Shown here: piece by piece, positions 6,450 to 52,610 of the stretch
How positions within the stretch are numbered: position 1 is the first letter of the stretch
Layout: each line of letters opens with the position of its first letter
Origin: Bradyrhizobium lupini
GTDB taxonomy: Bacteria > Pseudomonadota > Alphaproteobacteria > Rhizobiales > Xanthobacteraceae
DNA length: 64,000 nt
NCBI RefSeq assembly: GCF_040939785.1
Contig: NZ_CP162553.1
Coordinates: 2,604,001 to 2,668,000 of the forward strand
Direction: 5' to 3'
Position numbers and translations under genes: made by a program
Notes under the pieces: generated by a model
Told to the model about the DNA's origin: nothing
The model's input: only the letters and a program-made list of their open reading frames with translations
Database searches by the model: none

Positions 6450-6515
6450 AATCTCGAATGCAATCTCGGCATCGCTGCACATTGGAGCGGAAAGCCCATC
6501 TGACCAAGATTTACG

Positions 6516-9866: not shown

Positions 9867-9868
9867 TT

Positions 9869-10549: not shown

Positions 10550-10599
10550 TGCTTGACCTCAGGAGATGGCAGGGAACCGAATTCGAAAGAAAGGAGGCG

Positions 10600-11835: not shown

Positions 11836-11838
11836 TGC

Positions 11839-15385: not shown

Positions 15386-15395
15386 GGGACTATTC

Positions 15396-16949: not shown

Positions 16950-17147
16950 GACAGCCCCCCAGTTGAGTGAGGCAGCTAGCGTCTAGCCGCCTCACATGAG
17001 GACAACTAGAAAAAGCAGAACCTGCGCGACAGCAACAATGAGACCATGTCAATCGTAGTCTGGCGTAGAAGAAGAAAGATTAGGGACGATCGCTTCTGAC
17101 GCGCCGAATATCATGAACCGGGACATCAGCCCGGCGACAGGCTGGCT

Positions 17148-18521: not shown

Positions 18522-18537
18522 GTTTCTGGCGGCCGGC

Positions 18538-19377: not shown

Positions 19378-19589
19378 AGAAAGACAAGGCGGTCTCAGAA
19401 GAGCGGGATTTGTAAGCCTGTGTCATTCGCGGGCAGCCAACGACCTGTTGCAGCGGGGCCAGGCGCCTTGAGTGACGAGCCCATCGCTTGTTGCTTCGTG
19501 GCGTACTGCCGACCTGCAGTCTGGTTATCTGATTCAGCGCCGCACCCATCGCCAGGAGCTGCCAGGGCGCATTGGGGCGCGCGTACTGA

Positions 19590-20012: not shown

Positions 20013-20021
20013 GCTGCCCGC

Positions 20022-21998: not shown

Positions 21999-22580
21999 GG
22001 ATTGGAGATGTGGAGGCATTCATGGGGCGCGCACAAGCGGTGGCGCCCGTGAATCGTACTCGCGCGCGTCATGGCGCAGAAATCAGCGGGTCAGGCGAAC
22101 GGTCGCATTCGTGAATGAAGATCCCCAACGGTCCGGAACATACCGGTGATATTAGCCACAACATACAATGATCCATGTCGCGCTCCGAAAACGACTGAAA
22201 GAGCCGGCGATTATCCCATCGTTGCGTGACCGTCGCGGCTACGGCGTCAGACGTTACCCAACGTTTGCTCGATATGGCGGATTCGCCCTTGCTCCGATCA
22301 ATTGGTGCTGGTGGCGTTCTCTTTCGGAAGTTGTCGTGCTCGACACGAGCGACTTGGCGAGCTGTCGACTATGCCCAAGGTCGGGCCAGGATGCTTCCCC
22401 GCAGAGAGGGCACAGAAATAAGTTTAGTCATTAAAAGAACGCAGCGTTCATCTCATCAGCCGGGGCCTAACGACGCTTTTTGGCCCGATATGCCATTGAT
22501 GCGCAGAAATCCCGCTAGCGACATCGAATATCGTACGGCGCGCACGGGTTTGCGCAGCAAGCAAAGTCGCGCCGAGGGCG
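21999..22580. other. divergent intergenic region, traG / deacetylase
   Basis: This 580-bp stretch separates divergently transcribed traG and the deacetylase gene and must hold both promoters. A plus-strand open frame across 22226-22663 has no recognisable content and I treat it as chance. No terminator or strong palindrome stood out. Confidence 0.4.
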
Positions 22581-35497: not shown

Positions 35498-36562
35498 CTA
35501 TTCCGCGGCCACCGTGGACGAATGCAGGAAGCGAGCGACGTCCTCTGGCACGAGCTGAAACCGCAAGGCTGCTCGGAGGGCATCGAGCCCGAAGATGTGC
35601 AGATCTTCGTTGAAGTCGCCCAACCGAGGCGACAGCGCGATCGCTTCAATGCCGGCGTCTGTCGCGCGCTGGGTAAGGATCGCCTGCACGGCATCTCCGG
35701 CGGCATCGGCGTCGCGGGCGATGTAGAGCCGGCGCAGGCTAGACGGCAGCGACATGGCTGCGAGGTGATGAGCCGAAAGCGCGGCCGCCATCGGCATCGT
35801 CGGTAGCACGTAGCGCAGCGACAGCATGGTCTCGATACCCTCCCCCGCAGCGAGCACATCACCCACCACACCGAACCGAACGGCGTTGCCGAGCAGGTCG
35901 CCCATCGCGCGTCGTGGCGTGTCGATCGGAGCCTTGCCGAGCCGCACGCGATCAAAGCCGTCCGGGTCAACCCAGGTGCGATGTACGCCAGTGATCCGCC
36001 CATCAGGGTCCGTGACGCAGGCAATCATCGCCGGCCAGGTCTCGGTCGGCAGATGGTCGTCCGACCGATAGTAGCAGCGTGGGTGGAAGCGCAGACTGCC
36101 ACCATGGTGGATGCGGTCTATTCCGCGACGCTGCAAGCACCTCTCGGCTACCGTCCCTTCAATCGGTCTGGACATCGCAAAGAGCCGACGAGCCGCCTCT
36201 TGTGATCCGGTCGGCGCAGGCGAACGAACGGGTTTCGCGGTCAGTTGCTGCTCAGAACGAGGAAGCTTGAGAAAGCGCCTCGCCTCCTCGGCTACCTCAC
36301 GAAAGTCTCGCAAGGCCAAGCTCTCGCGGATGATGTCAAGGAGATCACCATGCTCGCCGGTCGCAGCATCGGTCCACTTGCCGGCGGGGCCCTTCGGTGA
36401 GTCCTGAAGCCGCACGAACAACGAGCGGCCCGGGGTGTTATGGACGTCGCCGACCAACCAGTACCGCCCCGCCCGCTTACCATTGGAGAGATAGTATCGG
36501 CACACCGCCTCGACCTCGCGCGCGAGGCGGCATGCCAGCTCAGAGGCACCGCGGGACATCAC
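35498..36562 (-). CDS. toprim-domain (primase-like) protein of the ICE core
   Basis: This 354-residue protein has an N-terminal DNA-binding region with VGDVHNTPGRSLFVRL and GKWTDAATGEHGDLLDII, and a C-terminal toprim domain from about 230. The acidic motifs are VLAAGEGIETMLSL and LYIARDADAAGD. The arrangement matches the DUF7146-toprim proteins of ICEs and plasmids, which are thought to prime or process transferred single strands. It overlaps the strawberry-notch gene by 4 bp, so the two are cotranscribed and coupled. Confidence 0.9.
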   Translation of the reverse strand: MMSRGASELACRLAREVEAVCRYYLSNGKRAGRYWLVGDVHNTPGRSLFVRLQDSPKGPAGKWTDAATGEHGDLLDIIRESLALRDFREVAEEARRFLKLPRSEQQLTAKPVRSPAPTGSQEAARRLFAMSRPIEGTVAERCLQRRGIDRIHHGGSLRFHPRCYYRSDDHLPTETWPAMIACVTDPDGRITGVHRTWVDPDGFDRVRLGKAPIDTPRRAMGDLLGNAVRFGVVGDVLAAGEGIETMLSLRYVLPTMPMAAALSAHHLAAMSLPSSLRRLYIARDADAAGDAVQAILTQRATDAGIEAIALSPRLGDFNEDLHIFGLDALRAALRFQLVPEDVARFLHSSTVAAE

Positions 36563-39500
36563 GCGGCCTCCCGCTCAGCGATGCGCGCGACCGGATAGGT
36601 GTCGAGCACCTGCGACAGGATCTCGACGCCGCTCGCGTCCGTGGGCACGAACATGCGCAGCTTCCAGGAGATGATCTCTCCAAAGAGGCCGTAGGCCCGC
36701 AAACGGTCGCGCATCATGTCGTTGAACCCAGACAGTTCGATGCGGTGTGTGCCCATCACCCGGACGCGGCGGAGCTGGAGTCCTTCCGCAAGCTCGAGGA
36801 CGGTCCGTCCCTCCACGAGTGCGGCAAAGGCAGCGTCCGGCGTCAACGCCGGCACGTCAGCCGCAAGGGCGTTCGCGACCCAGGTCGCCGAGACCTTGCG
36901 GCCGATGATCCGCTCGCCCGCGTCGGTTTGAAGCCGATAGACGCGGGTCGATTCGTTCGGCAGCCGCTTCCAGATCGGGAGCAGCAAGCCCGCCACGACA
37001 TGGATCGTGCTGTCCGTGTACTCGGGCACGTCGGCAAGCTCGGCGAGCCAGGCCGCGGCGAAGCGTTCACGATCTGCCTCGACCCAATGGCTCTCTGCCA
37101 TGATGTTCAAGGGAACGTTGTGCTGCTCCATCGGCCGGATCAGGCGGACGCGCCGCTCGATCTCGCCGTCGTCGAGCATGGTGCTCGGCGCCGCGACCTG
37201 CACGGCGGCTCGTGCCGAGCGCTCATTGACCAGCAGGACGGAATTGCGATCGGAAAGAGGACCAAGAGCATCATCGAGGCTCACGGGATGATTACGCTGG
37301 CGCTGGGTGATCGTGAGCAGCCGGGTTTCGGCGCCAGTACCGGGATGGACATAAATCGTCCGCCGGTCGGTAAGGACAAAGCTCTCGGCGCGGAGCGTTT
37401 CCAACCCGACGTCATAGGTGCCTGAGGCAACCGCGCCCTCGATGCGAGCGGTCAAGAGCTGCTCGAAGACGGTGAACAGGATGTTCTGAAGCTCGATCGT
37501 GAGCGCCAGCAACCGGTTCAGGAACGTCGTGATCGGCGGCAGGTCATCCCTGAGACCGTTGGCGTCCGTCAGCTTCAGGCCGGTCGCATCCTCGAAGCTT
37601 TCGATCGAGCAGCCCTCGACCTTGCCGCGCGCCAGTAGCGTGTAGAGTTGGCACAGCGCATCGCGGCCGTACTGGCTTTCCAGATTGTCCTCGGGCCGGA
37701 ACAGGCCCTGCCCTCCGGTCTGGCGCTGGCCGCGGGTGATGGCGCCCAACGTGTCGAGCCGGCGCGCAATGGTGCTGAGAAAGCGCTTTTCGGCCTTGAC
37801 GTCGGTTGCAATGGGACGACACAGCGGCGGCTGCGCCTGGTTGGTCCGGTTGGTGCGGCCGAGCCCCTGGATCGCGGCGTCCGCCTTCCAGCCAGGCTCG
37901 AGCAAATAGTGGACCCGCAAGCGGCGATTCCGCGCCGACAGCTCGGCATGGTAGCTTCTCCCAGTGCCGCCCGCGTCGGAGAACACGAGGATCCGCTTGA
38001 CGTCATCCATAAAGGCCGACGTCTCGGCGAGGTTGGCCGAAGCGGCTCGGTTTTCGACGATCAGCCGGTCGCCCTTGCGAACGATGCGGCGCGAGCGGCC
38101 GGTCACTTCGGCGACCATATCGGTACCGAAACGCTGGACGACCTGGTCCAGCGCGCCAGGCACCGGCGGCAGCGAGGCAAGCTTCTCGATGAGGCGGTCG
38201 CGGCGGGCTACCGCCTCGCGGCTCTCGACCGGCTGCCCATCGCGATAAACAGGCCGGGAGCAGAGATTGCCCTCCGAGTCCGTGAAGGGCTCGTAGAGCT
38301 GGACCGGAAAGGAATGGGCGAGATAGTCGAGGACATATTCGCGCGGGGTGATGTCGACCTGGACGTCGCCCCAGTCCTCGGTGGGGATCTCGGCGAGACG
38401 GCGCTCCATCAGCGCTTCGCCCGTCGAGACGATCTGGATGACGGCGGCATGGCCAGCGTCGAGATCATGCTCGATCGAGCGGATCAACGACGGCGTTTTC
38501 ATTGAGGTCAGGAGGTGGCCAAAGAAGCGCTGCTTGGCGCTCTCAAAAGCGGATCGCGCGGCCGATTTAGCCTGGCCGTTCAGCGTGCCGGTCTCGCCGG
38601 TGATGTTGGCGGCCCGCAGTGCCGCATCGAGGTTGTTATGGATGACGCTAAACGCGCCGGCGTAGGCGTCGTAGATCCGAACCTGCTCGGGCGTAAGCTG
38701 GTGCTCGACGAGCTCGTACGCGACGCCCTCGTAGGATAGAGACCTCGCCGCGTAGAGACCGAGCGCCTTGAGGTCGCGCGCAAGCACCTCCATGGCCGCG
38801 ACGCCGCCCTCCTCGATTGCCTGGACGAACTCGGCCCGGGTCGCGAACGGGAAATCGGCGCCGCCCCACAATCCCAGCCGCTGAGCGTAAGCCAGATTGT
38901 GCACGGTCGTGGCACCCGTCGCCGAGACATAGACGACACGGGCATTCGGCAAGGCGTGCTGGAGCCTCAGGCCCGCACGCCCCTGCTGAGACGCAGCCTG
39001 GTCGCCGCGCTCGCCCTTCTGGCCTGCCGCGTTCTGCATGGCGTGGCTCTCGTCGAAGACGATTACTCCGTCGAAGTCGGAGCCCAACCATTCAACGATC
39101 TGCCGCACGCGCGAAAGCTTCTCGCCGCGCTCATCGGTGCGCAGCGTAGCGTAGGTGGTGAATAGGACGCCTTCCTCAAGCCGGATCGGTGTGCCCTGGC
39201 GGAAACGTGACAGCGGCGTCACGAGCAGCCGCTCCATGCCGAGCGCGGACCAGTCGCGCTGAGCGTCTTCGATCAGCTTGTCGGACTTGCTCATCCAGAC
39301 GGCACGGCGCCGACCCTTGAGCCAATTGTCGACAAGAATGCCGGCGACCTGCCGCCCCTTGCCCGCGCCGGTGCCGTCGCCCAAGAACCAGCCGCGGCGA
39401 AAACGCACGGCATTTTCTGCATCGTCGCGTGCAGCCGCCACACCGTCAAAGGTCGCATCCACCGTCCAGGAGCGCGCAAAAAACTCGGAATGCGCCTCGC

Positions 39501-40881
39501 CGGCATAGATGACGCTCTCAAGCTGGGCGTCGGACAGGATGCCGTCCGCCACGACATTGGCCGGCAGATGTGGCCGGTAAGACGGCTTCGGCGGCGCGAC
39601 CGAGGCCATCGCGGCGGACTGCACGAGTTTGGTCGGATGCGCATGCGCGTGCGGAATACGGATCGTCTGTAGCGCGTATTCCTCATAAAGCGCGTCGGTG
39701 AGCCGGGCGCATTCCGGAGGTGTCCACTCGACCGTCTCGTAGGTGAGTTCGATGCCCTCTGGAGCCCTCTCTCCCGACGTGGACGATCGGCGTGGTGCAA
39801 AGGCACCGATCGGCCGCGGCGTCGCGGGGCGCCTGTCGACGTCAACCGCGACGGGGGTCGCAAGCGGCAGCCGCGGGGGCACGTGCTGGCTCACCCAGTC
39901 GAGCAACGTGGCGACGTCGCCAGCCATGCCCTGCGCGGCCAGAAGGACTTTCGGATTTGCGGCAGGCTGCTTGTCGATCACCAGCAGTCGTGTGTCGGTC
40001 TGCGTTCCGTGTTTCGCGTAGACTGCGCCATCGATGGCGGCAGAAAATACCACCCGCCCGCTCTCCTGGAGGCGAACGAAGGCATCTCGCCACGCCGGAT
40101 TGTCCGGCGCAAGGCTCGCGCCGGTGATGGCGACCAGACGGCCACCGTCGCGAAGACGCGCCAAGGACGAGGCGATGTGCCGGAATGCCGCGTCCGTCAT
40201 CCATCGATCGACGTTCGCCAATGCCGAGAACGGCGGGTTCATCAGGATGACGCTCGGTACGACACGCGCATCGAGGTGATCATCGATCTGGGCGGCGTCG
40301 AACCGGGTGACCTTAACGTCGGGAAACAGTTGGTCGAGCAACGCCGCGCGGGTCTCGGCCAGCTCGTTCAGTACCAAGGCGCCGCCGGCGAACTCGGCAA
40401 AGATGGCGAGCAAGCCAGTCCCCGCGGAAGGCTCCAAAACCCGGTCGGACGACGTGATGCCGGCCGCGGTGGATGCGGCAAGCCCCAGCGGGATCGGCGT
40501 CGAGAATTGTTGAAGAGCTTGGCTATCCTCGGAGCGCCGCGTGTGGGTCGGCAGACAGCGCGCGATTCTCGCGAGCATCGGCAGCATCGCGGCCGTCGAG
40601 CCGGCCTTGACACGGATAGCCGGACCGAATTTGCGAAGGAACAGAACGGTGGCCACCTCGCAGACATCATAGCCGGTCTTCCAGTTCCAGGCGCCGGTGG
40701 CGTCGGAAGCGCCGAAGGCAGCTTCCATGGCGCTACGTAGGACAGCGGCATCGATACGATGGCCGCGCTCGAGATCGGTCGAGAGCTGTCGGGCGGCCCT
40801 GATGGCGGCGGAGGTGAGACTTGCAGCGGCACGCATCGAGAGCGGCGCGGCGGCAGCGCCGCCGGCGAGAGATTCGGTCAT
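36559..40881 (-). CDS. strawberry-notch-type helicase with N-terminal methyltransferase-like domain
   Basis: This is a very large protein (1440 residues from ATG 40881; an earlier in-frame start at 40920 is possible). Residues about 130-300 look like an adenine-type methyltransferase: LEPSAGTGLLAIFAEFAGG and the NPPF motif in VILMNPPFSALANV. From about 420 a superfamily 2 ATPase follows with GDGTGAGKGRQVAGILV (motif I) and VIVFDESHAM (motif II). The strawberry-notch helicase C part has FSDAGGTGRSYHAELSA and AIQGLGRTNRTNQAQPP. It probably remodels DNA during transfer or protects it (anti-restriction), but the role is not shown. The frame is intact throughout. Confidence 0.92.
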   Translation of the reverse strand: MTESLAGGAAAAPLSMRAAASLTSAAIRAARQLSTDLERGHRIDAAVLRSAMEAAFGASDATGAWNWKTGYDVCEVATVLFLRKFGPAIRVKAGSTAAMLPMLARIARCLPTHTRRSEDSQALQQFSTPIPLGLAASTAAGITSSDRVLEPSAGTGLLAIFAEFAGGALVLNELAETRAALLDQLFPDVKVTRFDAAQIDDHLDARVVPSVILMNPPFSALANVDRWMTDAAFRHIASSLARLRDGGRLVAITGASLAPDNPAWRDAFVRLQESGRVVFSAAIDGAVYAKHGTQTDTRLLVIDKQPAANPKVLLAAQGMAGDVATLLDWVSQHVPPRLPLATPVAVDVDRRPATPRPIGAFAPRRSSTSGERAPEGIELTYETVEWTPPECARLTDALYEEYALQTIRIPHAHAHPTKLVQSAAMASVAPPKPSYRPHLPANVVADGILSDAQLESVIYAGEAHSEFFARSWTVDATFDGVAAARDDAENAVRFRRGWFLGDGTGAGKGRQVAGILVDNWLKGRRRAVWMSKSDKLIEDAQRDWSALGMERLLVTPLSRFRQGTPIRLEEGVLFTTYATLRTDERGEKLSRVRQIVEWLGSDFDGVIVFDESHAMQNAAGQKGERGDQAASQQGRAGLRLQHALPNARVVYVSATGATTVHNLAYAQRLGLWGGADFPFATRAEFVQAIEEGGVAAMEVLARDLKALGLYAARSLSYEGVAYELVEHQLTPEQVRIYDAYAGAFSVIHNNLDAALRAANITGETGTLNGQAKSAARSAFESAKQRFFGHLLTSMKTPSLIRSIEHDLDAGHAAVIQIVSTGEALMERRLAEIPTEDWGDVQVDITPREYVLDYLAHSFPVQLYEPFTDSEGNLCSRPVYRDGQPVESREAVARRDRLIEKLASLPPVPGALDQVVQRFGTDMVAEVTGRSRRIVRKGDRLIVENRAASANLAETSAFMDDVKRILVFSDAGGTGRSYHAELSARNRRLRVHYLLEPGWKADAAIQGLGRTNRTNQAQPPLCRPIATDVKAEKRFLSTIARRLDTLGAITRGQRQTGGQGLFRPEDNLESQYGRDALCQLYTLLARGKVEGCSIESFEDATGLKLTDANGLRDDLPPITTFLNRLLALTIELQNILFTVFEQLLTARIEGAVASGTYDVGLETLRAESFVLTDRRTIYVHPGTGAETRLLTITQRQRNHPVSLDDALGPLSDRNSVLLVNERSARAAVQVAAPSTMLDDGEIERRVRLIRPMEQHNVPLNIMAESHWVEADRERFAAAWLAELADVPEYTDSTIHVVAGLLLPIWKRLPNESTRVYRLQTDAGERIIGRKVSATWVANALAADVPALTPDAAFAALVEGRTVLELAEGLQLRRVRVMGTHRIELSGFNDMMRDRLRAYGLFGEIISWKLRMFVPTDASGVEILSQVLDTYPVARIAEREAA

Positions 40882-40997
40882 GGCAGGGTTCTTTCGGAGA
40901 GCAGGAATGGGTCGAACCATCAGGCGCTCTCCTTAAGACCCGACGGCTCAAACCCTTCCCGGCCCGGCTCTCCCTCTCAGCCCTCGCCCATAAGAAT

Positions 40998-41024
40998 GGG
41001 GACCGGCGCGACACACCGGTCCCC
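40998..41024 (-). terminator. perfect GC hairpin downstream of parB-like gene
   Basis: Arms GGGGACCGG and CCGGTCCCC are perfectly complementary around nine bases. The hairpin lies 41 bp past the ParB stop. There is no clear T-run; the following ATTCTTATG is only mildly T-rich. It is a candidate terminator between the ParB and strawberry-notch genes. Confidence 0.5.
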
Positions 41025-41064
41025 AAGCAATTGCCGGACGGCCGGAGCCGTCCCTTCTACGATG

Positions 41065-43175
41065 TCACTCAGCCGCGTCGAGCTGTTGCGGATCATCGTC
41101 GGCCGCGTTGTCCCAATCCTCGTTATCGACGAGGAATTCGGGGAGCGGGCCCGCTTCACTCTCCTGCTCCCCTGACGCCGCATTGGGATCGACGAGACGC
41201 AGCGGCTCCGGCAACCAGCCCGAACCATCGAGAAGACGCTCAGCCTCCTTGGCCATGTCGGCCTTCTTCAGGTGGTCGATCAATTGTGCGGAGGATTCGC
41301 CTTTTGCTTCCCGCACTGCCTCCAGAATGCGAGGCTTGGTGACGCGGCCGAGATAGTTGTCGACGGAGGGTTTCCACCCCGCTTGAACCATGTCGAGGCC
41401 GACGGCACCTGCCAGCATATCGGCCTGGTCGAGCCGGGTGCGAACGCCCTGGACGGAGACGCGGCCCTGATGGTAGCGGTTGGCCGGCTCATAGACGGCG
41501 TTGACCGCAAATGACGCGCAGTGGGCGAACAGGGATGCCTGTGCGGTACCGTCAAGATCTGTGAGGGCATTCCAAAGATCATTCTCGCCGTCCGGCAACC
41601 ATGCCTTCCAGGATTCATGCCGCGCCTCGACGGCCTTCGCGGACGCGCTTTCCCTCAAGCCAGGAGCTTGAGCCGGAAAGGTCGGCGTGCGAAGTCGGAT
41701 CTCAAGGCAGCTTCCGGACGATGCGAACCGGTAAAAGGCCGTCAGCACGAAGTTGTGCAGCACCGCCTGGAACGCAATCGCAGGATTTTCTGCCAGCGCA
41801 TTCCGCAACGCCAGCGTGCGATGCGCTGTCAGCTCCGTGATCAGCCGATCCGGCAGAGGTTTCGTCCCATCCTCATCATCTTCTTCCGTATCAGTAGCGC
41901 CGCCGGCCACCGCGATGACCGCGCGCTGGACGCCAGCCGCCCTCCCCTCGATCGACTGTGTATCGGCGCCTTGCCCGACATCGGGCTCGGCTGCTGGCAA
42001 GTCGTCTCCCGGCCGGACGTAACCCCGATCGACCGAGAGGCGCCCTTCGGAATCGATGCTGACGAAGACGCCAGCGCCGGCAATCTCGGCCGGATCGTAG
42101 ATCATCGGCCGGTCTTCAAACGCCAACAGTGCCGCCTCGATTTCGCCGAGACGCTGATCGACCTCATCGGGCAATTCGTCGGCATCCTGATAGTCGGACT
42201 CAAGCTTGGCTTGCTCCGCGTTGAGTGCGTCGATGGTGGCCAGTTCCTCTGGGGAGAGATCCACAGGTTTGCCCTCGATTTCGCGCAGGGCCCTAGCGTG
42301 ATCGAAGGGGAACTCAACGGCGGCCGAAATCCACTTCCACCCCTCCGCAGCGATCGTCTCGGCCTCGGCCTTGAGCTTTTCTGTCACGAGACGATCAAGC
42401 AAAGCAACGTCCTGCAGCCAGCCGCCATCATCGTGCCCGAACAGATCCCGCAAAACGCCGCCGCCAGCCTGCTCGTAAGCATCCAGCCCAATGAACTGGA
42501 CGCGGCGATCGGACGCGCGCACGGTATTTTCCGTCAGCATTCGCCGGATCTGATAGGGCTCATCATAGCCGGATCGGCTGACGTTCTCCCAGACCTGCTC
42601 CTGCCTGGCGTGGTCGGCTGTTACAGAGAAGGCCATGAGTTGCTCGAGAGTCATGCCGTCTTCGGCATAGACGTCGTGGAGCTTTGGCGACACCGACGCC
42701 AATCGCAACCGTTGCTTCACGACCGCCGGGGTTACGAGGTGCCGAGCAGCGATATCCTCCTCGGACATGCCGGCGCCACTCAAGGTCCGGAAGGCTCGAA
42801 ACTGATCGAGCGGATGAAGCCCTACCCGCTCGTCATTCTCTGCAAGAGAATCATCTTCAGCGATGCCCCCTCGCGCACGACACAAGGAACGGCCTGGGCC
42901 TTTGCCATCCGCTTCTGCTTGACGAGAAGCTCCAGCGCCCGATAACGCCTGCCGCCGGCCGGCACCTCGAACATGCCGGTCTCATTGCCTTCGGCGTCCA
43001 CCACCGCCCGCAGGTTGAGACTCTGCAGGAGCGTACGCTTCGCGATGCTTTCGGCGAGTTGCTCGATGGAAATGCCCGCCTTCACGTGCCGGACGTTGGA
43101 CTGGCTCAGCACCAGCTTGTTGAACGGAATATCACATGAGGGGGACAGCGTGATCTTTTGGACAGCCTTCGTCAT
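41065..43175 (-). pseudogene. ParB/RepB/Spo0J-family protein, frameshifted
   Basis: The start MTKAVQKITLSPSCDIPFNK at 43175 leads into the ParB nuclease-like domain (NVRHVKAGISIEQLAESIAK; EVPAGGRRYRALELLVKQ). At 42866-42870 a run of five G on the minus strand shifts the frame after VPCVVREG. With six G the protein continues GGIAEDDSLAENDERVGLHP and AARHLVTPAVVKQRLRLASV (the HTH region), and on to the acidic C-terminus at 41065. Joined, it is about 700 residues, the normal size for the ICE ParB proteins, which are thought to help maintenance or act as nucleases. As written, no full-length protein is made. Confidence 0.88.
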
Positions 43176-43187
43176 ATCGATTCTCCA

Positions 43188-43229
43188 CGACGGGCAGCCG
43201 GGAGCCCTCTCTCGGCCTCCAACCCGTCG
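43188..43229 (-). repeat. hairpin leader before ParB gene
   Basis: An outer stem CGACGGG / CCCGTCG encloses an inner GGAGGCC-like stem with a GAGAGAG loop (minus strand). It ends 13 bp upstream of the ParB start codon. The ArdC gene has a matching element at the same distance (44252-44292), which suggests a shared translational or transcriptional control element. Confidence 0.6.
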
Positions 43230-43282
43230 CGAAAAGCGCCGCTGCCCTCTCACTCTGGTGCTCGCGGCGACGGAGGAGAACC

Positions 43283-44239
43283 TCACGCCGCTTCCTGATC
43301 CGCTCTCTCCGTGGTGATGTCGACAACCACTTCCGGCAGGAAGCCAAGGAGATAGTCCGCAACCTTGCTGGCCTGCGAAGCAGCTCGCACGATCGCACGA
43401 TTATCCTCTCGCAGGACCTCCAACCAGGAGCCAATATAATCGGCGTGCCGCACCGTGGGCACGATACCAAGCGACGCGCAACCGAACGCAGAGGCGATTT
43501 CAGCAACCAACTCCTCAAAGGCATACTTCTTGGTACCAAAGCTGCCCGACAAGTCGCGGTTGAGGCGTGACGGATGGCCGCTGGCATGCGCCAATTCATG
43601 CAGGGCCGTCCGGTGCCAATTGATCGGTTCGAAATAGGCTTGCGGTGGGGGCACCTGCACATAATCGTCCGCCGGCACATAAAAGGCGCGATTGCCGCCA
43701 ATGCGGAAGTCGATTCCGGTCGCCTTGATCAAGTCTTCAACCTGCGGCTCGATCAGCCCTGGCGGCGGAGGCGGCGCCGTTGTCGCGATCTCCGGAGGAA
43801 GCCTGTCGCATTGATCACAGTTGAAGACCCTGAAGCGCTTGAGGAACGGAATGGCCTGCGCGTCCTCACCGCTCTCGCTCGCGCGGCGCTTTTGCTCGGC
43901 CGGCACAAAGCGGTCGGCATAGACGACGGTCGTGCCGCGCTCGCCCTTGCGGACGTGACCACCGAGCGACAGCGCCTGGCGGAATGTAAGCCAGCTCTGC
44001 CCTGTAAATCCGTGTTCTGTCGCCGCTCCCCATAGAATTAAAATGTTTATGCCGCTGTATTGGCGGCCGGACGCCGCACTCTTCGGCAGCGCCAGCGGCG
44101 CCTTCGCCGCCGCGGTGCCCCAAGGCTGCACCCACGGCACGCGGCCGGCCTCCAGCTCGGCGATGATCTTGTTGGTGATGTCGTCATAAAGGCTTGCCCG
44201 GTCCTCACCGGTGCGCGCCCGAGGATGATGTCTGGACAT
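43283..44239 (-). CDS. ArdC-like antirestriction protein / zincin metallopeptidase
   Basis: This 318-residue protein has the ArdC N-terminal single-strand-DNA-binding domain (about 15-140: SLYDDITNKIIAELEAGRVP, GRQYSGINILILW) and a C-terminal zincin domain with HELAH (residues 214-218) and a downstream acidic motif EELVAEIAS. ArdC proteins protect entering DNA from host restriction during conjugation. It is intact and starts after GGAGATC. A hairpin leader shared with the ParB gene lies just upstream. Confidence 0.93.
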   Translation of the reverse strand: MSRHHPRARTGEDRASLYDDITNKIIAELEAGRVPWVQPWGTAAAKAPLALPKSAASGRQYSGINILILWGAATEHGFTGQSWLTFRQALSLGGHVRKGERGTTVVYADRFVPAEQKRRASESGEDAQAIPFLKRFRVFNCDQCDRLPPEIATTAPPPPPGLIEPQVEDLIKATGIDFRIGGNRAFYVPADDYVQVPPPQAYFEPINWHRTALHELAHASGHPSRLNRDLSGSFGTKKYAFEELVAEIASAFGCASLGIVPTVRHADYIGSWLEVLREDNRAIVRAASQASKVADYLLGFLPEVVVDITTERADQEAA

Positions 44240-44806: not shown

Positions 44807-45316
44807 TCAGGCGCCGGCCAGCGCGGCGGCTCTCGGAGTAATCGCCGCATCAACGGCCGAATGGAAGCATTCCCGCAACCTTCGGATATAGTCCGTTCGC
44901 TCGTGAACGGGCCGGCGCATCATGAAGGATGGATGCTCCAGCCGGATCAGCGTCGGTCCTGAGCGACAGCCGGCTTCGAAACGCGCGCTCTGGACCGTCT
45001 GGAGCGCCTGTCCGACGATTGCGCTCAGTCCGATCACCACGTCAGAACTGCCCAGGCGCCACAGGGCATGTCCCTCGAGTTCCGCCACGAGTTCGCCGCA
45101 ACTTGGGTAACGCTCACGGCCTTTCTTGTCGAAAAGAGCACGGGGAATGACGTTGTCGAAGCGCAGAATGACCTCGCCCGACGCCGCCGTCGCGTCAATC
45201 GCGTTTCGCAGAAACTTGCCCGAGCGAGAATTCGGCGAGAACGCGGGAAAGGGCTTGGACGTCGCCGGATCGAACTTCCGACATGGTCCCAAGAACAAAA
45301 TCGTCGTCCGCTTCAT
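44807..45316 (-). CDS. uracil-DNA-glycosylase-like protein
   Basis: This 169-residue protein starts MKRTTILFLGPCRKFD. A middle segment VILRFDNVIPRALFDKKGRE and a late motif RLEHPSFMMRRP, which resembles the His-Pro-Ser motif of uracil-DNA glycosylases, suggest a compact or diverged UDG-fold protein. The fold call is tentative: the water-activating first motif (GxDPG or similar) is replaced by LGPCRKFDP. It overlaps the radical SAM gene by 4 bp and is the last gene of the minus-strand operon. It may remove, sense or bind a modified base or nucleotide. Confidence 0.55.
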   Translation of the reverse strand: MKRTTILFLGPCRKFDPATSKPFPAFSPNSRSGKFLRNAIDATAASGEVILRFDNVIPRALFDKKGRERYPSCGELVAELEGHALWRLGSSDVVIGLSAIVGQALQTVQSARFEAGCRSGPTLIRLEHPSFMMRRPVHERTDYIRRLRECFHSAVDAAITPRAAALAGA

Positions 45317-46715
45317 CGCAATCGCTGCTCCCGCATGATCATCGCCAAATTGCGGCGAATGACATCGACCGGCACTTCGCCAAACTGCAAACCCGTCGAA
45401 AAGTTGAACTCATCCCGATCCGGTGGAAAGTCCGCGTCATCCATCCGGTCCGAGTAGTCCAACATGGCCGCCGGCAAGCGACCAGCATCAACCAGCCGCT
45501 GCCAGTCCGGTGTCCCCGGATAAGGCCGGTACTCGAAGACGCTGCAACGGAAACGCCCCGGCATCCCCTCCGTCAGGTCCCATAGGCGCCTGACCAGGCC
45601 CAAGGTCGCCTGATGTTCGCCGCGCGTCTCAGTAGGCAGTCCAAGGATGAAATAACCTTTAACATCGATCCCCACCCGGCAAAGTCTCGTCACTGCCCGC
45701 ACGGTCTGGGCCACCGTGATCTTCTTGTCCACGTACCTCAGGACGCGATCGCTTCCACTCTCGATCCCGAGGGCAACTTCGCGGCAGCCTGCAGTCACCA
45801 TGAGATCGAACAGTTCGTCTCGCGCTCCCGCCAGTACGTTGATCCGTCCCGTTGCGTCCCACCTCATGTCCAGACGAGCGTCGACAAAAGCCTTGAGCGT
45901 CGTGCGCATGAGGCGCTGGTTCGCCAAGAACAGGTCATCGACGAACCTGACCCGCTGCACGCCGAGCCGCGCCTTGAGATTGAGGATCTCCTCCATGATG
46001 CGCTCTGGCTTTCGCATCCGGACGGTCACGTCGGGATTGCTGCTTACGGCTGCACCGCAAAACGAACAATCAAAGGGGCATCCGCGCGAGGCGACCATCG
46101 CGGATTCAAGAACTCCGCCGTCCCAGTAAGGATCCTGGTCCAGATGGCTTCTGTCCAGCAACGGCATGGCATCGACGTCGGGCGCCAGCAGAAAAGGGTT
46201 CTTGCTGCGCACGACGGGCATCATCGGCTTTCCGCCATCGCGCCAAAAGACGCTTGGCAGCTCCACCCGGGTATTCACGTCCGTAAGTAGAATGGGAACC
46301 CGCGTCTCGGCTTCGCCAAGCACAAGTGCGTCAATTCGAGGAATACGCGAGTCCTCGAGTATGGCCCGCGGCATCGCTTTGGCCTGGTGGCCACCCAACA
46401 TCACCGATATCGAAGGATCAAGCAGTTGCAGAAGGTGAACGCTATGTGCGTAGGTCGGCGCCAGCAGGTTCAGGCCGACCCAGCGTGGGCGCGCTTCGTT
46501 GAGCATGGCGGCAACCTCGGAAAGGCCAAGGCCCCGTGCTTCGGCATCCAGCACCCGAACCGAAAAGCCGTTCTGGTTGGCACAGGTCGCAATATAAGCG
46601 AGCCCGAGGGTCGGTAGCGTGAAGTCGTTTCGCCGCACCGACTGGTCATAATCCTTCAGGGGGAGTTCACGAGGACGAGGTCGAGGTCGCTCTCGATCGC
46701 CCCTCCGCCCGTCAT
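45313..46715 (-). pseudogene. B12-binding-type radical SAM protein, frameshifted start
   Basis: The radical SAM cluster is RGCPFDCSFCGAA (CxxxCxxC), preceded by a Rossmann-like cobalamin-binding-type domain (LPTLGLAYIATCANQNGF, VGLNLLAPTYAHSVHLLQLL, VMLGGHQAKAMP). The classic DxHxxG cobalamin His is not seen. The main frame begins with GTG 46638, but family N-termini are longer. From ATG 46715, which overlaps the kinase stop (ATGA), another frame reads MTGGGAIESDLDLVLVNSP and joins LKDYDQSVRRNDFTLPTLG if the run of five C at 46659-46663 (minus strand) had six. Corrected length is about 467 residues. Chemistry may be methylation or another radical transfer; the substrate is unknown. Confidence 0.85.
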
Positions 46716-47335
46716 GACGCGCCGCTCCTCTGGAGAATCGGCGCTATCTCGGCGGCAAGCTGTGCCGCCAAAGTCACTTCGTCACCCGATGCATCCATCA
46801 CTCGCACGTCGTGACCGTTCGCAGTCAGTAATGCCGTAGCCTGATCGTAGAGTCCGACCTCCTCGTCAACCCCGAGCCGATCCTTGAACCAGTCCGGCTT
46901 GCGCGCTCGGCAGCCGCGCCGCGCAAGCAGTGGCGCCGCATCAACGCGCAAGACGAAGGTCACTGATGCCGCGAGCAAAGGGCGATTTGTTGCGTACAGG
47001 TACTCCAATGGCAGGCCGGCGAAACGCTGATAAACAAGTGTCGAGACGACGAAGCGATCGCAAAGCTGCGGCCGGTGCGCGCCTTCTCTCAGCTCGGCGC
47101 GGGCCGCGGCCGTCGCCAGCGCCAGGGTCAGAGGCCTGTCAGGCGCGCTGGCAAGCTCCCGGATGACCGTGCTCCAACGGCCGCTATCGTTGTTGCTGCA
47201 CTGCTCAAATCGGATCCCGTCTCGGATCAGACGGTCCGAGATCAGGTGAAGCAGCGTGGACTTCCCGATTCCGCTCGGTCCTTCGAGGGCGACAATAGGA
47301 AACCAGCTTGCAGTGCGGGGATCGTCTGCAAACAT
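46712..47335 (-). CDS. thymidylate-kinase-like P-loop kinase
   Basis: This 207-residue protein has Walker A GPSGIGKST (about residues 19-27) and the thymidylate-kinase-type DRx motif in CDRFVVSTLVYQRFAG. The usual LID residues are poorly conserved, and a RARKPDWFKDRLGVDEE segment may replace them. It is likely a nucleotide or small-molecule kinase, not the housekeeping Tmk. It is the first gene of the minus-strand operon, coupled to the radical SAM gene by ATGA. The start has only a weak ribosome site. Confidence 0.8.
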   Translation of the reverse strand: MFADDPRTASWFPIVALEGPSGIGKSTLLHLISDRLIRDGIRFEQCSNNDSGRWSTVIRELASAPDRPLTLALATAAARAELREGAHRPQLCDRFVVSTLVYQRFAGLPLEYLYATNRPLLAASVTFVLRVDAAPLLARRGCRARKPDWFKDRLGVDEEVGLYDQATALLTANGHDVRVMDASGDEVTLAAQLAAEIAPILQRSGAS

Positions 47336-47628
47336 CTTCTGAAAATCCGTTCTATTCGACGACCTTCAAAACCGTCATCGCGGCCCAGCCTAAAATACGC
47401 AATCCCTAGATGAACCCGCCGTATAATGGCTCCTATCGCGCGATTCGAACACCACGACTTTCCGCCTATTGGCGTCTTTTGCGTTTATGATTTGATGCCC
47501 GCGCACACGTGATCACGCTAGCCGTCTGACAGGCGCCGCCGGCGAAATTCTTCGCTGAGCTGCATTGCGGACGGAACAACCTGCCATATATAGTCAAATA
47601 CCATTCGTTTGTAGATAGAATCCCGCCA
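47336..47628. promoter_or_regulatory. shared divergent promoter region of the seven-gene cluster
   Basis: The 293 bp separate the kinase operon (minus) from the radical SAM operon (plus). The part near 47582-47620 is A+T-rich (CCATATATAGTCAAATACC) and could hold the plus-strand promoter. No strong operator palindrome was found. Confidence 0.45.
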
Positions 47629-48753
47629 TTGCCTGACAAAACCGTGCCAAGCCTTCGAATTGCCCCTTCCGATCTGCCGGCGTCACTCAAGAACGTGGTC
47701 GAGTATCGAAAATCCGGCCTCAGCCTGAACCACGTCGTAGGCTGCCCGCTGGACTGCGGCTACTGCGTCCGTCATCTGTTCCAGAACTTCGAGATGAAGC
47801 AGCCTCATTTGGTGGTGAGCGACCATGAGGCAGTCGATCTTCTGGTCGGCCATTGGGCGTTCCGGCCCGACACCACGCCCATTCAGATTTTCAATCGAGC
47901 GACCGACCCGTTCTTGCCGGGGGTCAAAGATCATCTGTTCGCGACCCTCGAGCTATTGGACGAAAGACACTTCACCAATCCCGTGCTGGTCATCAGCAGA
48001 TGGAAGATCGAGCCATCGGACGTCCATCGCTTCGACCGCTTGAAGCATTTGCGACTGACGATTCTCGTCACCTGGTCGGGCATTGACGATGATCGAATTG
48101 AGCCCGTGGACAGCGTTCACGCTGAAAACTCGCTGCGAGTCTTGCACGAGCACGCAAGGAGGACGAAGTCGATTTTGTATTGGCGACCACTGATCGCGGG
48201 GCTCAACGACAGCGATCAGCACATCGGCCGCGCACTGGCACTTTCTTCGCTCGCCGGTGCCACCGTCTTCACCGGGCTGTTCCATCGCGCTGAGATTCGC
48301 GAGCATCTTCGGCTTTCAGGCGTACCCGATGTCTATCCCGAGATCGCCCGTCGGAAGATCCTGCCGGCGGAGACGGAGAAACGCATCATCGATGCATTCG
48401 CGGGTCGGCCGCTCTTTCGAAAGACGTCCTGCGGGATCGCCTACGTCCTTCATCGCGCCGATTACAACGGGCACTATGGCATTCGAGAGATGTGCGATAT
48501 CTGTCCAGCTGAACAGGTCGCGCGATGCGCTCTGGTCCATCAAAAGCCGAAGGTCTCTCAGGTGACGGAACTCGCGGCGATCGCCAAGCTGGAGACGGAC
48601 CATATCTCGATCGATCATCGTCGAATTGAATTGAGCAACAGCTCTGAACAGCAGCGCTATTTCATTCAACACACGCTAAACTACCAGGTCCACGATCGGG
48701 ACCACCCTCACCGATTTGGACGGCATGGACGAGCGGAGCTGGGATGGGAGTAG
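47629..48753 (+). CDS. radical SAM protein of the spore-photoproduct-lyase-like group
   Basis: This 374-residue protein has the cluster motif GCPLDCGYCVRH (Cys39, Cys43, Cys46) followed by IQIFNRATDPFLPGV, which is characteristic of the SPL/Rv2578c-like radical SAM branch. A C-terminal set of cysteines (MCDICPAEQVARC) could hold a second cluster or zinc. DNA-photolesion repair is the best-known activity of relatives, but substrate assignment is not possible here. The start is TTG 47629; GTG 47644 is an alternative. It overlaps the exonuclease gene by 10 bp. Confidence 0.85.
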   Translation: MPDKTVPSLRIAPSDLPASLKNVVEYRKSGLSLNHVVGCPLDCGYCVRHLFQNFEMKQPHLVVSDHEAVDLLVGHWAFRPDTTPIQIFNRATDPFLPGVKDHLFATLELLDERHFTNPVLVISRWKIEPSDVHRFDRLKHLRLTILVTWSGIDDDRIEPVDSVHAENSLRVLHEHARRTKSILYWRPLIAGLNDSDQHIGRALALSSLAGATVFTGLFHRAEIREHLRLSGVPDVYPEIARRKILPAETEKRIIDAFAGRPLFRKTSCGIAYVLHRADYNGHYGIREMCDICPAEQVARCALVHQKPKVSQVTELAAIAKLETDHISIDHRRIELSNSSEQQRYFIQHTLNYQVHDRDHPHRFGRHGRAELGWE

Positions 48754-49333
48754 ACACTGACCAATTCTGGGTCGTGGACGTTGAAGGCAGCGGCGGAAGC
48801 CCGCCCGAAATCGTCGAGTTGGCCATGCTGGAGGTCAAGGATCTCGCATTGACCGACAACAAGCGCCACTGGTTCATTCGGCCCGACCGCGGGATCCAGC
48901 CAAGCGCAACGCGGATACATGGTCTGACAGACGATGACGTCGCAGACGCCCCCTCGATCGAGGATATCGCCGACGACGTCCTGATGTGGATCGGAGCCCC
49001 CCTATCGTCGGCCACAACGTCAAGATCGAAGTCGAGATTCTAAAGCGCTCAATGCCTGATTGGACGCCGCGAGCCGCGTTCGACACTCTGACGCTTGCAA
49101 AAGCGCTCAAGCCGGAACTGCCGTCTTACGGTCTGGCCAATCTGGGCGCCGAATTTGGGCTCGCTGACAAGGCTGCACAGCTCACCGGACAGCGCCATCA
49201 TTCGGCACTCTACGATGCGACCCTCACGGCCCTGATCCTTATCCATTTGCTCACGCCTCTGCCCAGTAGCGAGCGCGACAGGGCGCTGAGGGATGCAAAT
49301 ATCCTCGGCCCTCGACAAGGATCGCTGCTGTGA
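48744..49333 (+). pseudogene. DEDDh 3'-5' exonuclease (DnaQ-like), frameshifted
   Basis: The first frame has FWVVDVEGSGGSPPEIVELA (Exo I with D and E) and RIHGLTDDDVADAPSIEDI. It goes out of frame at the run of six C at 48997-49002. The second frame continues with PPIVGHNVKIEVEILKRSMP (Exo II), DTLTLAKALKPELPSYGLANL and HHSALYDATLTA (Exo III with the DEDDh His and Asp), ending at 49333. One extra C restores a protein of about 196 residues. It is a stand-alone epsilon-like nuclease. It overlaps both neighbours by a few bases. Confidence 0.85.
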
Positions 49334-49920
49334 GCTCGCCTCCAGTCAAGATCGGCATTACCGGGACGCATTCCACCGGCAAGTCGTCGTTCTTCGAAGC
49401 TTTGGAGGCAGAGCTAAAGCAGCTCAACTTGCGGGTCTGCCGCATCGGCGATTTTGCGATCAAGGCAGAGGCTCTGGGATTCCGGATCCTCAGGGATCAC
49501 ACCTTCGAAAGCACACTGTGGATTATGGCCGAATGCATGCGTCTGGAGGCTGAAGCGTCACTGTCCTCCGACGTTATTCTGGTCGATCGCCCGGTGCTCG
49601 ACGCCCTGGGTTATTTGCGGGCGGCGCTCGAATTGACCGGCCGAACAATCGGTGAGCGGCGCCAGGCCGCCCTGACAGCCATGGTGGCTGCGCACATGCC
49701 CGACTATGATGTATTCATCAAAACATCGCTCGATCCGAGAATTGAACTCGGTGCAGGGCGAGACAAGGACTCTGACTTTCGTAAAGCTGCCGCGCGCTGG
49801 ATCGAGCAGCTCGCTTACGTCCTTGCGCCGGTGCCTTTGACGTTGACGTCGTCAAATCAGGCCGAAATCCTCCGGACGGTTATCGACCGTGTCGCGACCC
49901 GTTTGTCCGCGTCCAAATAG
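49330..49920 (+). CDS. P-loop NTPase of the NadR/AAA_28 type
   Basis: This 196-residue protein has Walker A GTHSTGKSSFF (residues 12-22) and VILVDRPVLDALGYLRAALE, matching the NadR kinase-domain / AAA_28 group that phosphorylates nucleosides or related ligands. The start overlaps the exonuclease stop by 4 bp (GTGA) and the end is 3 bp from the aldo/keto reductase gene. A second kinase-like protein beside the thymidylate-kinase-like one suggests nucleotide chemistry for the cluster. Confidence 0.82.
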   Translation: MSSPPVKIGITGTHSTGKSSFFEALEAELKQLNLRVCRIGDFAIKAEALGFRILRDHTFESTLWIMAECMRLEAEASLSSDVILVDRPVLDALGYLRAALELTGRTIGERRQAALTAMVAAHMPDYDVFIKTSLDPRIELGAGRDKDSDFRKAAARWIEQLAYVLAPVPLTLTSSNQAEILRTVIDRVATRLSASK

Positions 49921-49923
49921 CTC

Positions 49924-50850
49924 ATGAGAAGCAATCCGTCTTCCTTGCGTCGCATCGGCCTTGGATGCATGCCGCTGAGCGGCATCTATGGACCTATCGC
50001 TCGCGACGAGGCCATCAAGATCATCCACGGTGCACTGGACCTTGGCATCACGCATTTCGACACGGCGGAGCTGTATGGGCCCTACCTGAACGAAGAATTG
50101 CTCGCCGACGCACTGGGTGCACACCGAACACGCGTGGAAATAGCTTCCAAGTTCGGCTATCGCTTGCGTGATGGCAAAATTGTCGGATTGGACAGCAGCC
50201 CCGGTTCAATCCGCCTGGCAGTGGATGGTTCGCTCCGGCGTTTGCGACGCGATCATTTGGACGTACTGTACCAACACCGCCCGGATCCAGCCGTGCCAAT
50301 TGAGGAGGTTGTTGGCACGATGTCGGACCTTGTCCGCCAAGGGAAAGTGTCGAGCCTTGGTTTGTCTGCAACGGACACCCACACCCTTCGTCGCGCCTCA
50401 GCCGTCCACCCGATCTCCTTCGTTCAAAACGAGTTCTCGCTGATCCAGCGCGCTGCCGAAACGACGCTTCTGCCCGACTTGCTGGGGACGTCGACCGAGT
50501 TTGTCTGTTACTCGCCGCTGGGCCGCGGAATGCTTGCCCGCCCTCTTCTGCCCAACGCCCAACGAGCGCCGTCTGACTATCGCAGCAAGGACGCACGCTA
50601 TCAGGCCGAACGCCTCGCTGAATTGGTCGACCGGTTGGCGCCACTCTGGCGCATCTCGGCGGCCCGGTCGGTCTCACCTGCGGCGATTGCGCTGGCCTGG
50701 CTGCTGGCCAAGACCCCCATCATTCATATCGTTCCGAGCGCAACGAGCGTGGAGCAATTGAAAGCCAATGTTCGTGCTGCGGATCTTGTCCTTTCAGGAA
50801 TGGAAATCAGCGACCTCGATCTGATCGGCGAGATGTCGGCACGGCAATAG
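49924..50850 (+). CDS. aldo/keto reductase
   Basis: This is an NADPH-dependent aldo/keto reductase, 308 residues. The catalytic tetrad is visible: Asp and Tyr in HFDTAELYGPYLNEEL, Lys in VEIASKFGY and His in LDVLYQHRPDP. The C-terminal NADP-binding loop region includes IHIVPSATSVEQLKANV. It is the last gene of the plus-strand operon. It may reduce a carbonyl intermediate formed by the radical SAM enzymes, but this is inference. Confidence 0.92.
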   Translation: MRSNPSSLRRIGLGCMPLSGIYGPIARDEAIKIIHGALDLGITHFDTAELYGPYLNEELLADALGAHRTRVEIASKFGYRLRDGKIVGLDSSPGSIRLAVDGSLRRLRRDHLDVLYQHRPDPAVPIEEVVGTMSDLVRQGKVSSLGLSATDTHTLRRASAVHPISFVQNEFSLIQRAAETTLLPDLLGTSTEFVCYSPLGRGMLARPLLPNAQRAPSDYRSKDARYQAERLAELVDRLAPLWRISAARSVSPAAIALAWLLAKTPIIHIVPSATSVEQLKANVRAADLVLSGMEISDLDLIGEMSARQ

Positions 50851-51093: not shown

Positions 51094-52610
51094 ATGCCGA
51101 AGAATATTGTGATCTTCTCCGATGGCACCGGCCAGGCCGGCGGCATCAATTTCGATGAGGCTCGAACCAACGTCTATAAACTCTATCGAGCTTGTCGGGT
51201 CGGTCCTGATACCACGGTTGAGCCGTCGGCACAGGTGGCCTTCTACGATCCAGGCCTCGGATCGGCTTCCGACGGCGGCCATTTCAAAATTGGCTGGATG
51301 CGGTGGCTCTACAACCTGGCCAGCATGGCAACGGGCCTCGGGATCACCCGCAATATCGTCGATTGCTACGCGGCGATCATCTCGCTCTACGAAGAGGGCG
51401 ATCGCATCTATCTGATCGGCTTCAGCCGCGGCGCCTATACGGTTCGGTCCGTCGCTGGTGTGATGACCCACTGCGGCATCCCGCAACACCTGTCCGATGG
51501 TTCTCCCCTCAAACGCGACCCCAAAAGTATCAAGAAACTAGCCGAGCACGCAGTCAAGGATGTCTACCAATTCTGCCCCTCCTAAGCCGCAAGGACACCA
51601 GGGGTCACCGACTATTCCTGCTCGAAACGCGGGATGCCACCGCAGCGAAATTCCGGCAGGAGCACGGCAGTTCACAGATCGTTGGTCAGGTCGAACAGGC
51701 TAACGTGTTTCCGTATTTCATCGGCGTATTCGATACCGTCGCGGCTCTCGGGCACAAATATCTCGGCTCTGCGCTCGTGGCGCTTGGCATCGCGATCCTG
51801 GTCGGACTGCATTGGGGCGGCAGCGCGCTTGAGCCCTACTTTCCGTGGGCTGGATGGGCAGCGCGCATCCTGAGCTACCTCGGCATCGCAGCCGCATTGA
51901 TCGTCTTGCTGAAGAATTATCTCAAGGTCGCGCCGCCATTGCCGGGCTACAGTCTGGACAAGCGGCTCTTGACCCTGCACCTGGCGCCTCCCAAGCACAA
52001 ATTCTATGACACCACATTGAACCGCAATGTCGGCTACGCCAAACATGCGATTTCGATCGACGAGAACCGCGCCGATTTCAAACGGGTTCCCTGGTCGCCA
52101 ACTGCCGAGAAGCAGGACCAGCGCGATGCTCAAGGTAATCTCTATTTCGAGCAAGTTTGGTTTCCGGGCGTACACGCCGACATTGGTGGTGGCTATCTGG
52201 AGAACGAAGCGCGCCTGTCGGACGTGGCGCTGAAATGGATTGTGGCCGGGGCTTCGCTTATTCCGGATGGTTTAAAGCATGATGGCAGTGTCTTACGACT
52301 GTCTCCGGACCCGGCCGGACCGCAACACAACGAGCAAGCGGGCAGCTTCTTGAAGGCCGGTGTGCGACATCTTCCCGTCGATCCGGAGACCGGCGAGTCC
52401 GCCTCACCAATGCACAAATCCGTCTACAAGCGGTTCGAAACAGACCACGTCCTGCTTTACGATCGGACGGCACCATATCGGCCGGACAATATGCGCGTTC
52501 ACATCGATTTCCGGACTTATTTCGACCAGGGCACACCTCCAGCGCCAAAGTGCGTTGCAGACGATCTCGAGACGAAATGGGAGAAAGCCGACCATGTGGG
52601 CCGGTTATAG
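51094..52610 (+). pseudogene. DUF2235 alpha/beta-hydrolase (Tle1-like phospholipase family), frameshifted
   Basis: The N-terminal frame has NIVIFSDGTGQAGGINFDEA and the nucleophile elbow GFSRGAYT (Ser111), then stops after DVYQFCPS. In the next frame SRKDTRGHRLFLLETRDATA continues, so one base is missing in or near CCCC at 51576-51579. The second part has two hydrophobic segments (about 51770-51925), WFPGVHADIGGGYLENE, which carries the family's Asp/His region, and ends at 52610. Joined, about 505 residues. Relatives include T6SS phospholipase effectors (Tle1) and uncharacterised membrane-associated hydrolases; no VgrG or T6SS gene is nearby. Confidence 0.85.

Follow-up and report, generated by a model that had tools for sequence, protein, structure and literature searches.

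Prokaryotic viperins are radical S-adenosylmethionine (SAM) enzymes that make 3′-deoxy-3′,4′-didehydro (ddh) nucleotides, and a kinase gene lies in their operon. By analogy, a viperin with its kinase offers the nearest described logic to a locus that we analyzed in Bradyrhizobium lupini, in which two divergent operons, called here the minus and plus cassettes after their strands, each join a radical SAM gene to a nucleotide-kinase-like gene and to the gene of a putative DNA-editing enzyme. The locus lies in a 64,000-nucleotide stretch (the window; bases 2,604,001–2,668,000 of a 7.83-Mb single-contig genome) whose proteins have their closest named relatives in Bradyrhizobium. We give about even chances to the reading that the two cassettes are independently mobile and of one kind, placed back to back here by happenstance, each coupling a radical SAM enzyme, a kinase and an enzyme that edits DNA or the nucleotide pool around a modified pyrimidine nucleotide, with a role in defence. 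The locus contains the following features (UDG, uracil-DNA glycosylase; dTMP, deoxythymidine monophosphate).

44807–45316, minus strand: UDG-fold protein of the minus cassette, so classed from its predicted structure
45313–46715, minus strand: B12-binding radical SAM enzyme of the minus cassette, with a 5′-proximal frameshift (PF04055, 83 bits; PF02310, 55 bits)
46712–47335, minus strand: dTMP-kinase-like P-loop kinase of the minus cassette (PF02223, 40 bits; PHROG 761, thymidylate kinase, 49 bits)
47336–47628, no strand: divergent intergenic region between the cassettes, 293 bp by coordinates
47629–48753, plus strand: radical SAM enzyme of the plus cassette, listed with a TTG start (radical SAM barrel, invariant cysteines)
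48744–49333, plus strand: DEDDh-type 3′–5′ exonuclease of the plus cassette, frameshifted (PF00929, RNase_T, in both pieces)
49330–49920, plus strand: NadR-like P-loop kinase of the plus cassette (PF13521, AAA_28, 36.6 bits; PHROG 2107, thymidylate kinase, 35 bits)
49924–50850, plus strand: aldo/keto reductase of the plus cassette (PF00248, 203 bits)

The order, strands and coordinates of the seven genes are those given in a first-pass annotation of the window, as is the divergent gap, and Pfam matches back its labels for the B12 radical SAM enzyme, the thymidylate-kinase-like protein, the RNase_T exonuclease, the AAA_28 protein and the aldo/keto reductase. The label UDG-like agrees with the predicted structure of a protein that has no Pfam match. 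Every internal junction had been described as overlapping or within 3 bp, and four are: the B12 radical SAM and UDG-like genes overlap by 4 nt (45313–45316), the plus radical SAM and exonuclease genes by 10 nt (48744–48753) and the exonuclease and NadR-like kinase genes by 4 nt (49330–49333), and 3 nt separate the NadR-like kinase gene from the reductase gene. The fifth depends on the start chosen, with the minus kinase and B12 genes overlapping by 4 nt only if the latter begins at the ATG at 46715; its longest open frame (46638–45313) leaves 73 nt between them.

A kinase gene in the operon, as in viperin, was found at 101 of the 108 plus-cassette loci whose architecture we scored by tblastn. 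The cassettes differ from viperin in other respects: the plus radical SAM enzyme matched no PDB chain at E≤1, whether searched as a single sequence or as a profile, although viperin structures are in the PDB; it has four extra invariant C-terminal cysteines; and the plus or minus cassettes bring further genes, for an exonuclease or a glycosylase, for a reductase and sometimes for a hydroxymethylase homologue. Among catalogued candidates, the closest is the weakly matched PADLOC entry PDC-M51, for which the B12 radical SAM enzyme scores 37 bits with model M51A and the minus kinase 22 bits with M51B (44 bits for the kinase of a Myceligenerans plus cassette, L053), all of them partial, weak matches to models that have no curated cut-off. 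The UDG-like protein matches neither model, and the plus radical SAM enzyme matches no PADLOC model at all. In an open-access library we did not find PDC-M51 by name or, by term searches, a description of either cassette, nor is either described in the retrieved portion of PMC10853773.

Spore photoproduct lyase, in which C140 (named in PDB titles) is catalytic, is another system to which the plus radical SAM enzyme had been likened. The label 'SPL-type' amounts to no more than a resemblance of fold, in which spore photoproduct lyase ties as a match with the pyruvate formate-lyase-activating enzyme and NifB, and a true spore photoproduct lyase is not supported by the empty PDB searches. The plus enzyme has a predicted radical SAM barrel and a CX3CX2C motif (C39, C43 and C46, in 34 of 34 aligned rows); these three cysteines and C268, C289, C292 and C300 are invariant in alignments of 34 and 30 rows, and no invariant cysteine lies between C46 and C268 in either alignment. 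A DNA repair island, with lesion repair begun by the radical SAM enzymes and finished by the exonuclease and glycosylases, seems very unlikely to us in view of the lacking PDB match, the lacking cysteine and a patchy distribution (8 of 265 genomes in the genus), and because the kinases and hydroxymethylase do not fit repair.

Distribution of the two cassettes

Among 265 Bradyrhizobium genomes, eight carry the UDG-like gene and eight the plus radical SAM gene, and only two, the window's genome and one other (G260), carry both (G and L numbers denote the genomes and loci of our set). Besides the window, G248, G002 and G001 have a full or nearly full minus trio, G106 has part of it, and G197, G111 and G260 keep a remnant; the plus quartet occurs in G190, G078, G126, G012 and G050, with remnants in G260 and G189. 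Three of these genomes (G248, G002 and G001) and G573, from another family of the order, have the minus trio without the plus radical SAM gene. Conversely, no UDG-like gene was found near the plus radical SAM gene at 106 of the 108 loci, the exceptions being the window and G260. The G260 remnants keep the divergent order of the window and enclose neither a kinase nor a B12 gene that we could find; the pairing thus occurs beyond this strain, but rarely. One shared genome among seven plus seven carriers besides the window is, by our inference, not above ready chance.

The first-pass annotation had argued that such tight coupling implies one pathway, a claim that fails for the seven genes jointly, since the cassettes are mostly found apart, but may hold inside each operon. 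The divergent layout around a shared 293-bp gap and the matching order in G260 are what a single obligate seven-gene system would have in its favour; the genome counts and the occurrence of each cassette alone contradict it, and we reject it, its remaining chance being close to nil.

The window's minus kinase is 65–70% identical to three Bradyrhizobium copies and 47% identical to the G573 copy. G248, G002 and G001 share the gene order kinase, B12 radical SAM, UDG-like, and so does G573, where the identities are 47, 69 and 43%; there the trio adjoins genes resembling type I restriction and recombinase genes (open reading frames (ORFs) judged by eye), and the UDG-like frame is 155 amino acids long with a profile match that continues across stops. 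Outside the genus, a search of 397 genomes of the order added a single carrier of the UDG-like gene (G573), and at E≤1e-60 the B12 enzyme was found only in G000 among 385 genomes of the class. Full-length B12 enzymes of 49–52% identity do occur on 12 Streptomyces and Kitasatospora plasmids. In all six that we fetched for gene order, a protein of ~270 amino acids is encoded upstream of the B12 radical SAM enzyme, followed by a dTMP kinase and a NUDIX (five plasmids) or MazG-like (one) protein. The UDG-like gene was found on none of the plasmid records searched, and its protein in none of the viral_contigs.

The upstream protein had no Pfam match in the three of six copies scanned singly, but a profile of all six matched ten PDB entries at E≤0.1, of which all ten were 3-methyladenine DNA glycosylases (best 1.8e-5), and by this homology it is a putative HhH-GPD/AlkA glycosylase. 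The UDG-like protein of the minus cassette has the UDG fold in its predicted structure and is a predicted member of the UDG superfamily with putative glycosylase activity. The partner of the B12 enzyme is accordingly a DNA glycosylase in both groups, of one or the other of two unrelated folds, which suggests that function rather than fold is what is conserved beside it. The glycosylase gene stands last in the Rhizobiales operon and first in the streptomycete one.

For the plus radical SAM enzyme, 2270 proteins matched at E≤0.001, and its family spans several phyla and plasmids; cassette hosts include many Streptomyces as well as Alphaproteobacteria, Nostoc, Pseudomonas and Myxococcus. Although the family is highly conserved (the window's enzyme is 52–57% identical to seven actinobacterial alignment rows) and so widely spread, no Pfam, NCBIfam, PADLOC or PHROG model matches it. 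An exonuclease accompanies it at 106 of the 108 loci, the kinase place is filled by a NadR-like enzyme at 98 and by a dTMP-kinase-like one at three, and an aldo/keto reductase is present at 67. A possible minimal form, on a Nostoc plasmid (L090), has the radical SAM and kinase genes with no exonuclease gene found. A DUF3800 protein adjoins the plus cassette on the same strand at eight loci (L006, L013, L021, L023, L024, L025, L027 and L029; gene upstream in seven, downstream in one), and that of L006 weakly matches the PADLOC candidates PDC-S51 and PDC-M04A.

Kinase replacement and clues to pyrimidine chemistry

A gene replacement links the two cassettes. In three actinobacterial plus cassettes (L053, L057 and L061, in Myceligenerans and Antribacter), a dTMP-kinase-like enzyme takes the place of the NadR-like kinase; that of L053 passes the NCBIfam dTMP kinase cut-off (104 versus 83 bits). 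These three kinases score 117–153 bits (40–48% identity) with the kinases of seven actinobacterial B12 cassettes, compared to 48–76 bits with four host thymidylate kinases (Tmk), and in a tree of 19 kinases the four host enzymes form one group (support 100/100). The window's minus kinase is far from both groups but nearer to the cassette kinases (46–62 bits, 28–33% identity) than to host Tmk (26–33 bits). The genome that holds L053 (G284, Myceligenerans) has both cassettes, with the order AlkA-like, B12 radical SAM, kinase on one contig and the plus set on another. In addition, four plus cassettes (L042, L132, L071 and L130, the last two of which are probably one locus) have, adjacent or close by, relatives of the NUDIX or MazG proteins known from the B12 cassettes. 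Judged from these sequences, the plus and minus cassettes may be of one kind, linked by the kinase replacement.

The chemistry is suggested by genes upstream of the plus cassette. At 30 of the 108 loci we found a hydroxymethylase-like gene followed by one for a protein with two nucleoside-diphosphate kinase (NDK) stretches. The upstream protein of L007 matches cytidine monophosphate (CMP) 5-hydroxymethylase (MilA of mildiomycin biosynthesis) over residues 10–330 of 338 with an E value of 8.8e-70, compared to 9.4e-10 for the best thymidylate synthase, and in an alignment of 28 copies at least 97% share a cysteine at one position. By full-length homology and this cysteine, the actinobacterial gene is a candidate CMP 5-hydroxymethylase, although, unlike the known enzyme, it sits in a mobile cassette of radical SAM enzyme, exonuclease and kinase. 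In phage records the hydroxymethylase-like protein found only partial matches, in 10 records and always over less than 80% of the query; some of these were to proteins annotated as pyrimidine hydroxymethylases. An uncharacterized protein of ~190 amino acids with no Pfam match (L007, 10090–10656) is encoded 3′ of the reductase at 14 of the 108 loci, all of which have the hydroxymethylase-like and NDK genes upstream.

Together, the hydroxymethylase homologue, the double NDK and the kinase place point to a pyrimidine nucleotide brought to the triphosphate. The suggestion that the locus makes, repairs or degrades an unusual nucleotide, which the first-pass annotation had made, gains support from these features and the kinase replacement, and also from the B12 enzyme having DNA glycosylases of two unrelated folds as neighbours.

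These same genes bear on two alternatives. Brig3, which its authors believe to have emerged from uracil DNA glycosylases, defends against phages with 5-hydroxymethylcytosine and is encoded in a defence island with a cyclic-oligonucleotide-based anti-phage signalling system (CBASS), according to the retrieved portion of PMC13160076; the same portion places the DNA glycosylases Brig1 and Brig3 in defence islands. A comparable marking and excision, in which modified phage DNA is the target of the glycosylase or exonuclease and modified phage nucleotides are converted or sensed by the radical SAM enzyme and kinase, would account for a minus cassette with a DNA glycosylase of either fold and for the link to 5-hydroxymethyl-pyrimidines through the CMP-hydroxymethylase homologue. 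However, unlike the Brig genes, the glycosylase gene here sits in a radical SAM and kinase operon, and the kinase, double NDK and hydroxymethylase in the host's cassette are left unexplained, as are the NUDIX and MazG partners. We consider this alternative unlikely.

The second alternative is a biosynthetic role, with a nucleoside antibiotic as the product of the cassettes, as in the mildiomycin pathway. The CMP-hydroxymethylase homology, the many Streptomyces hosts and the aldo/keto reductase would fit, as would a protein resembling a helix-turn-helix regulator (judged by eye) within ~2.7 kb of the plus cassette at nine actinobacterial loci (L050, L051, L053, L057, L058, L061, L065, L066 and L075). 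We regard a natural product as quite unlikely, because none of the largest neighbour clusters was recognized by eye as a transporter, the hosts extend to Alphaproteobacteria, Nostoc, Pseudomonas and Myxococcus, and the neighbours are rich in defence families.

From the gene content, conservation, gene replacements and neighbourhood of the cassettes, we infer a scheme for their substrate, product, editing enzymes and defence role. The radical SAM enzyme would alter a pyrimidine (deoxy)nucleotide, the P-loop nucleoside-monophosphate kinase would begin to raise the product towards the triphosphate, and the editing enzyme would remove the odd nucleotide from DNA or the pool, thereby sparing the host as an antidote rather than a weapon. 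The editor would be the 3′–5′ exonuclease in the plus cassette and the UDG-fold or AlkA-type glycosylase in the minus cassette, accompanied in streptomycetes by NUDIX or MazG, and streptomycete plus cassettes would start from a 5-hydroxymethylated pyrimidine nucleotide and end with the double NDK. The product would most likely act against invading replicons, either as a chain terminator or as a base whose excision breaks DNA.

More broadly, and more tentatively, the cassettes could represent a class of mobile innate-immune cassettes in which a radical SAM enzyme makes a modified deoxynucleotide and the cassette brings its own DNA-editing antidote (exonuclease, UDG-fold or AlkA-type glycosylase, NUDIX, MazG), with at least two radical SAM families, one B12-binding and one not, used in the same plan and drawing on the same kinase family. 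We hold this wider proposal as a possibility that falls short of even. If the reading is right, it would provide a second route, besides viperin, from radical SAM chemistry to nucleotides that act against invaders, one that comes with a DNA-editing partner. The intact operons, among them L006 (Gluconobacter albidus plasmid) and L007 (Streptomyces alboflavus) for the plus cassette and L113 and L160 for the minus one, form a short list for a direct search for substrate and product.

Mobile surroundings, defence-type genes and probable decay

To the left of the cassettes (7690–22019 and 36559–44239) lie genes for TrbI, TrbL, a TrbE-like protein, a T2SSE ATPase and a coupling protein, as well as an ArdC anti-restriction protein and a strawberry-notch-type helicase; these genes, several of them of conjugative elements, place the window in or next to a mobile element. 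Among 37 plasmid records with the plus cassette we examined 12 stretches (L002–L009, L090–L092 and L136), reading gene roles from annotated names, which in four of them point to known defence genes. ABC-three-component genes lie near the cassette in L002 and L005, the latter also with Shedu and 7-cyano-7-deazaguanine synthase genes; an anti-phage dGTPase and a TIR protein are encoded near it in L003; and in L136, on a pSymA plasmid of Sinorhizobium meliloti, a patatin, DncV-like and ThiF set that reads as CBASS (5108–9173) stands just upstream. Five stretches (L004, L006, L008, L009 and L090) have toxin–antitoxin, methylase or HNH genes only.

At E≤1e-10, 95 ORFs neighbouring plus cassettes (94 loci) match 201 PADLOC families and 95 control ORFs match six, a contrast that counts families rather than proteins, with false ORFs in both sets and 19 of the 95 neighbours, but none of the controls, coming from plasmid or viral records rather than genome contigs. 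The control ORFs had the same length range and came from 20 far-off stretches in 14 of the same genomes. The 25 families shown include CBASS E1-E2, GajB, HerA, LmuB and a DRT helicase. The viral_contigs hold nine loci with the plus radical SAM gene and cassette genes alongside. A phage origin of the plus cassette found no support, as neither the window's radical SAM enzyme nor that of L007 had a match in 50,697 phage records. The anti-phage role that the first-pass annotation had listed among possibilities gains circumstantial support from neighbouring genes alone.

Both cassettes of the window are broken. Each compared with three relatives, the B12 radical SAM gene has a frameshift in its 5′-proximal part and the exonuclease is frameshifted into two overlapping frames (48744–49043 and 48986–49333), each matching part of PF00929; intact copies of both genes are known from relatives. 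In the genome at large, 149 of 150 ABC-transporter domains listed have no internal stop, and all have open frames of at least 224 amino acids, evidence against frameshift errors throughout the genome. This sample covers 150 of 310 candidates and is of a kind that tends to pick intact domains. Completeness is 96.8%, compared to 99–100% in the 27 other genomes listed. Three more window genes look split between frames, as judged from ORF lists alone: a T2SSE/TrbB-like ATPase gene (15982–16949), a ParB-like gene (41065–43286) and a Tle1-like/DUF2235 gene (51094–52610). Because nearby mobile genes look broken too and the genome does not look riddled with frameshifts, decay of the island is favoured, but not proved, over base-calling error.

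Several points weigh against reading the locus as two working defence cassettes of one kind. The window's two broken cassettes may be inactive here. The hydroxymethylase-like and NDK genes were found neither in the window nor in Rhizobiales plus cassettes, so that the case for a pyrimidine depends on actinobacterial cassettes. The forks that unite the cassette kinases are weak, with the L166 kinase placed among the hosts (58/29), and at seven of the 108 plus loci no kinase gene occupies its usual position (five of them have the NDK-like gene and one is a remnant). The second (HN) motif of DEDDh exonucleases is expected to hold an aspartate, which is not conserved in 101 copies of the cassette exonuclease, although the DxE, DTL and HxAxxD motifs are. 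The glycosylases, last in one operon and first in the other, are no like-for-like replacement in place. As for defence, three of the 12 plasmid stretches (L007, L091 and L092) have no obvious defence-type gene, the counting of families and the unequal origin of the ORF sets limit the PADLOC contrast, and the phage records hold no match to the plus radical SAM enzyme.

Elsewhere in the window, positions 3486–3565 match the suhB/mmgR small RNA with 43.6 bits, compared to a gathering score of 41.

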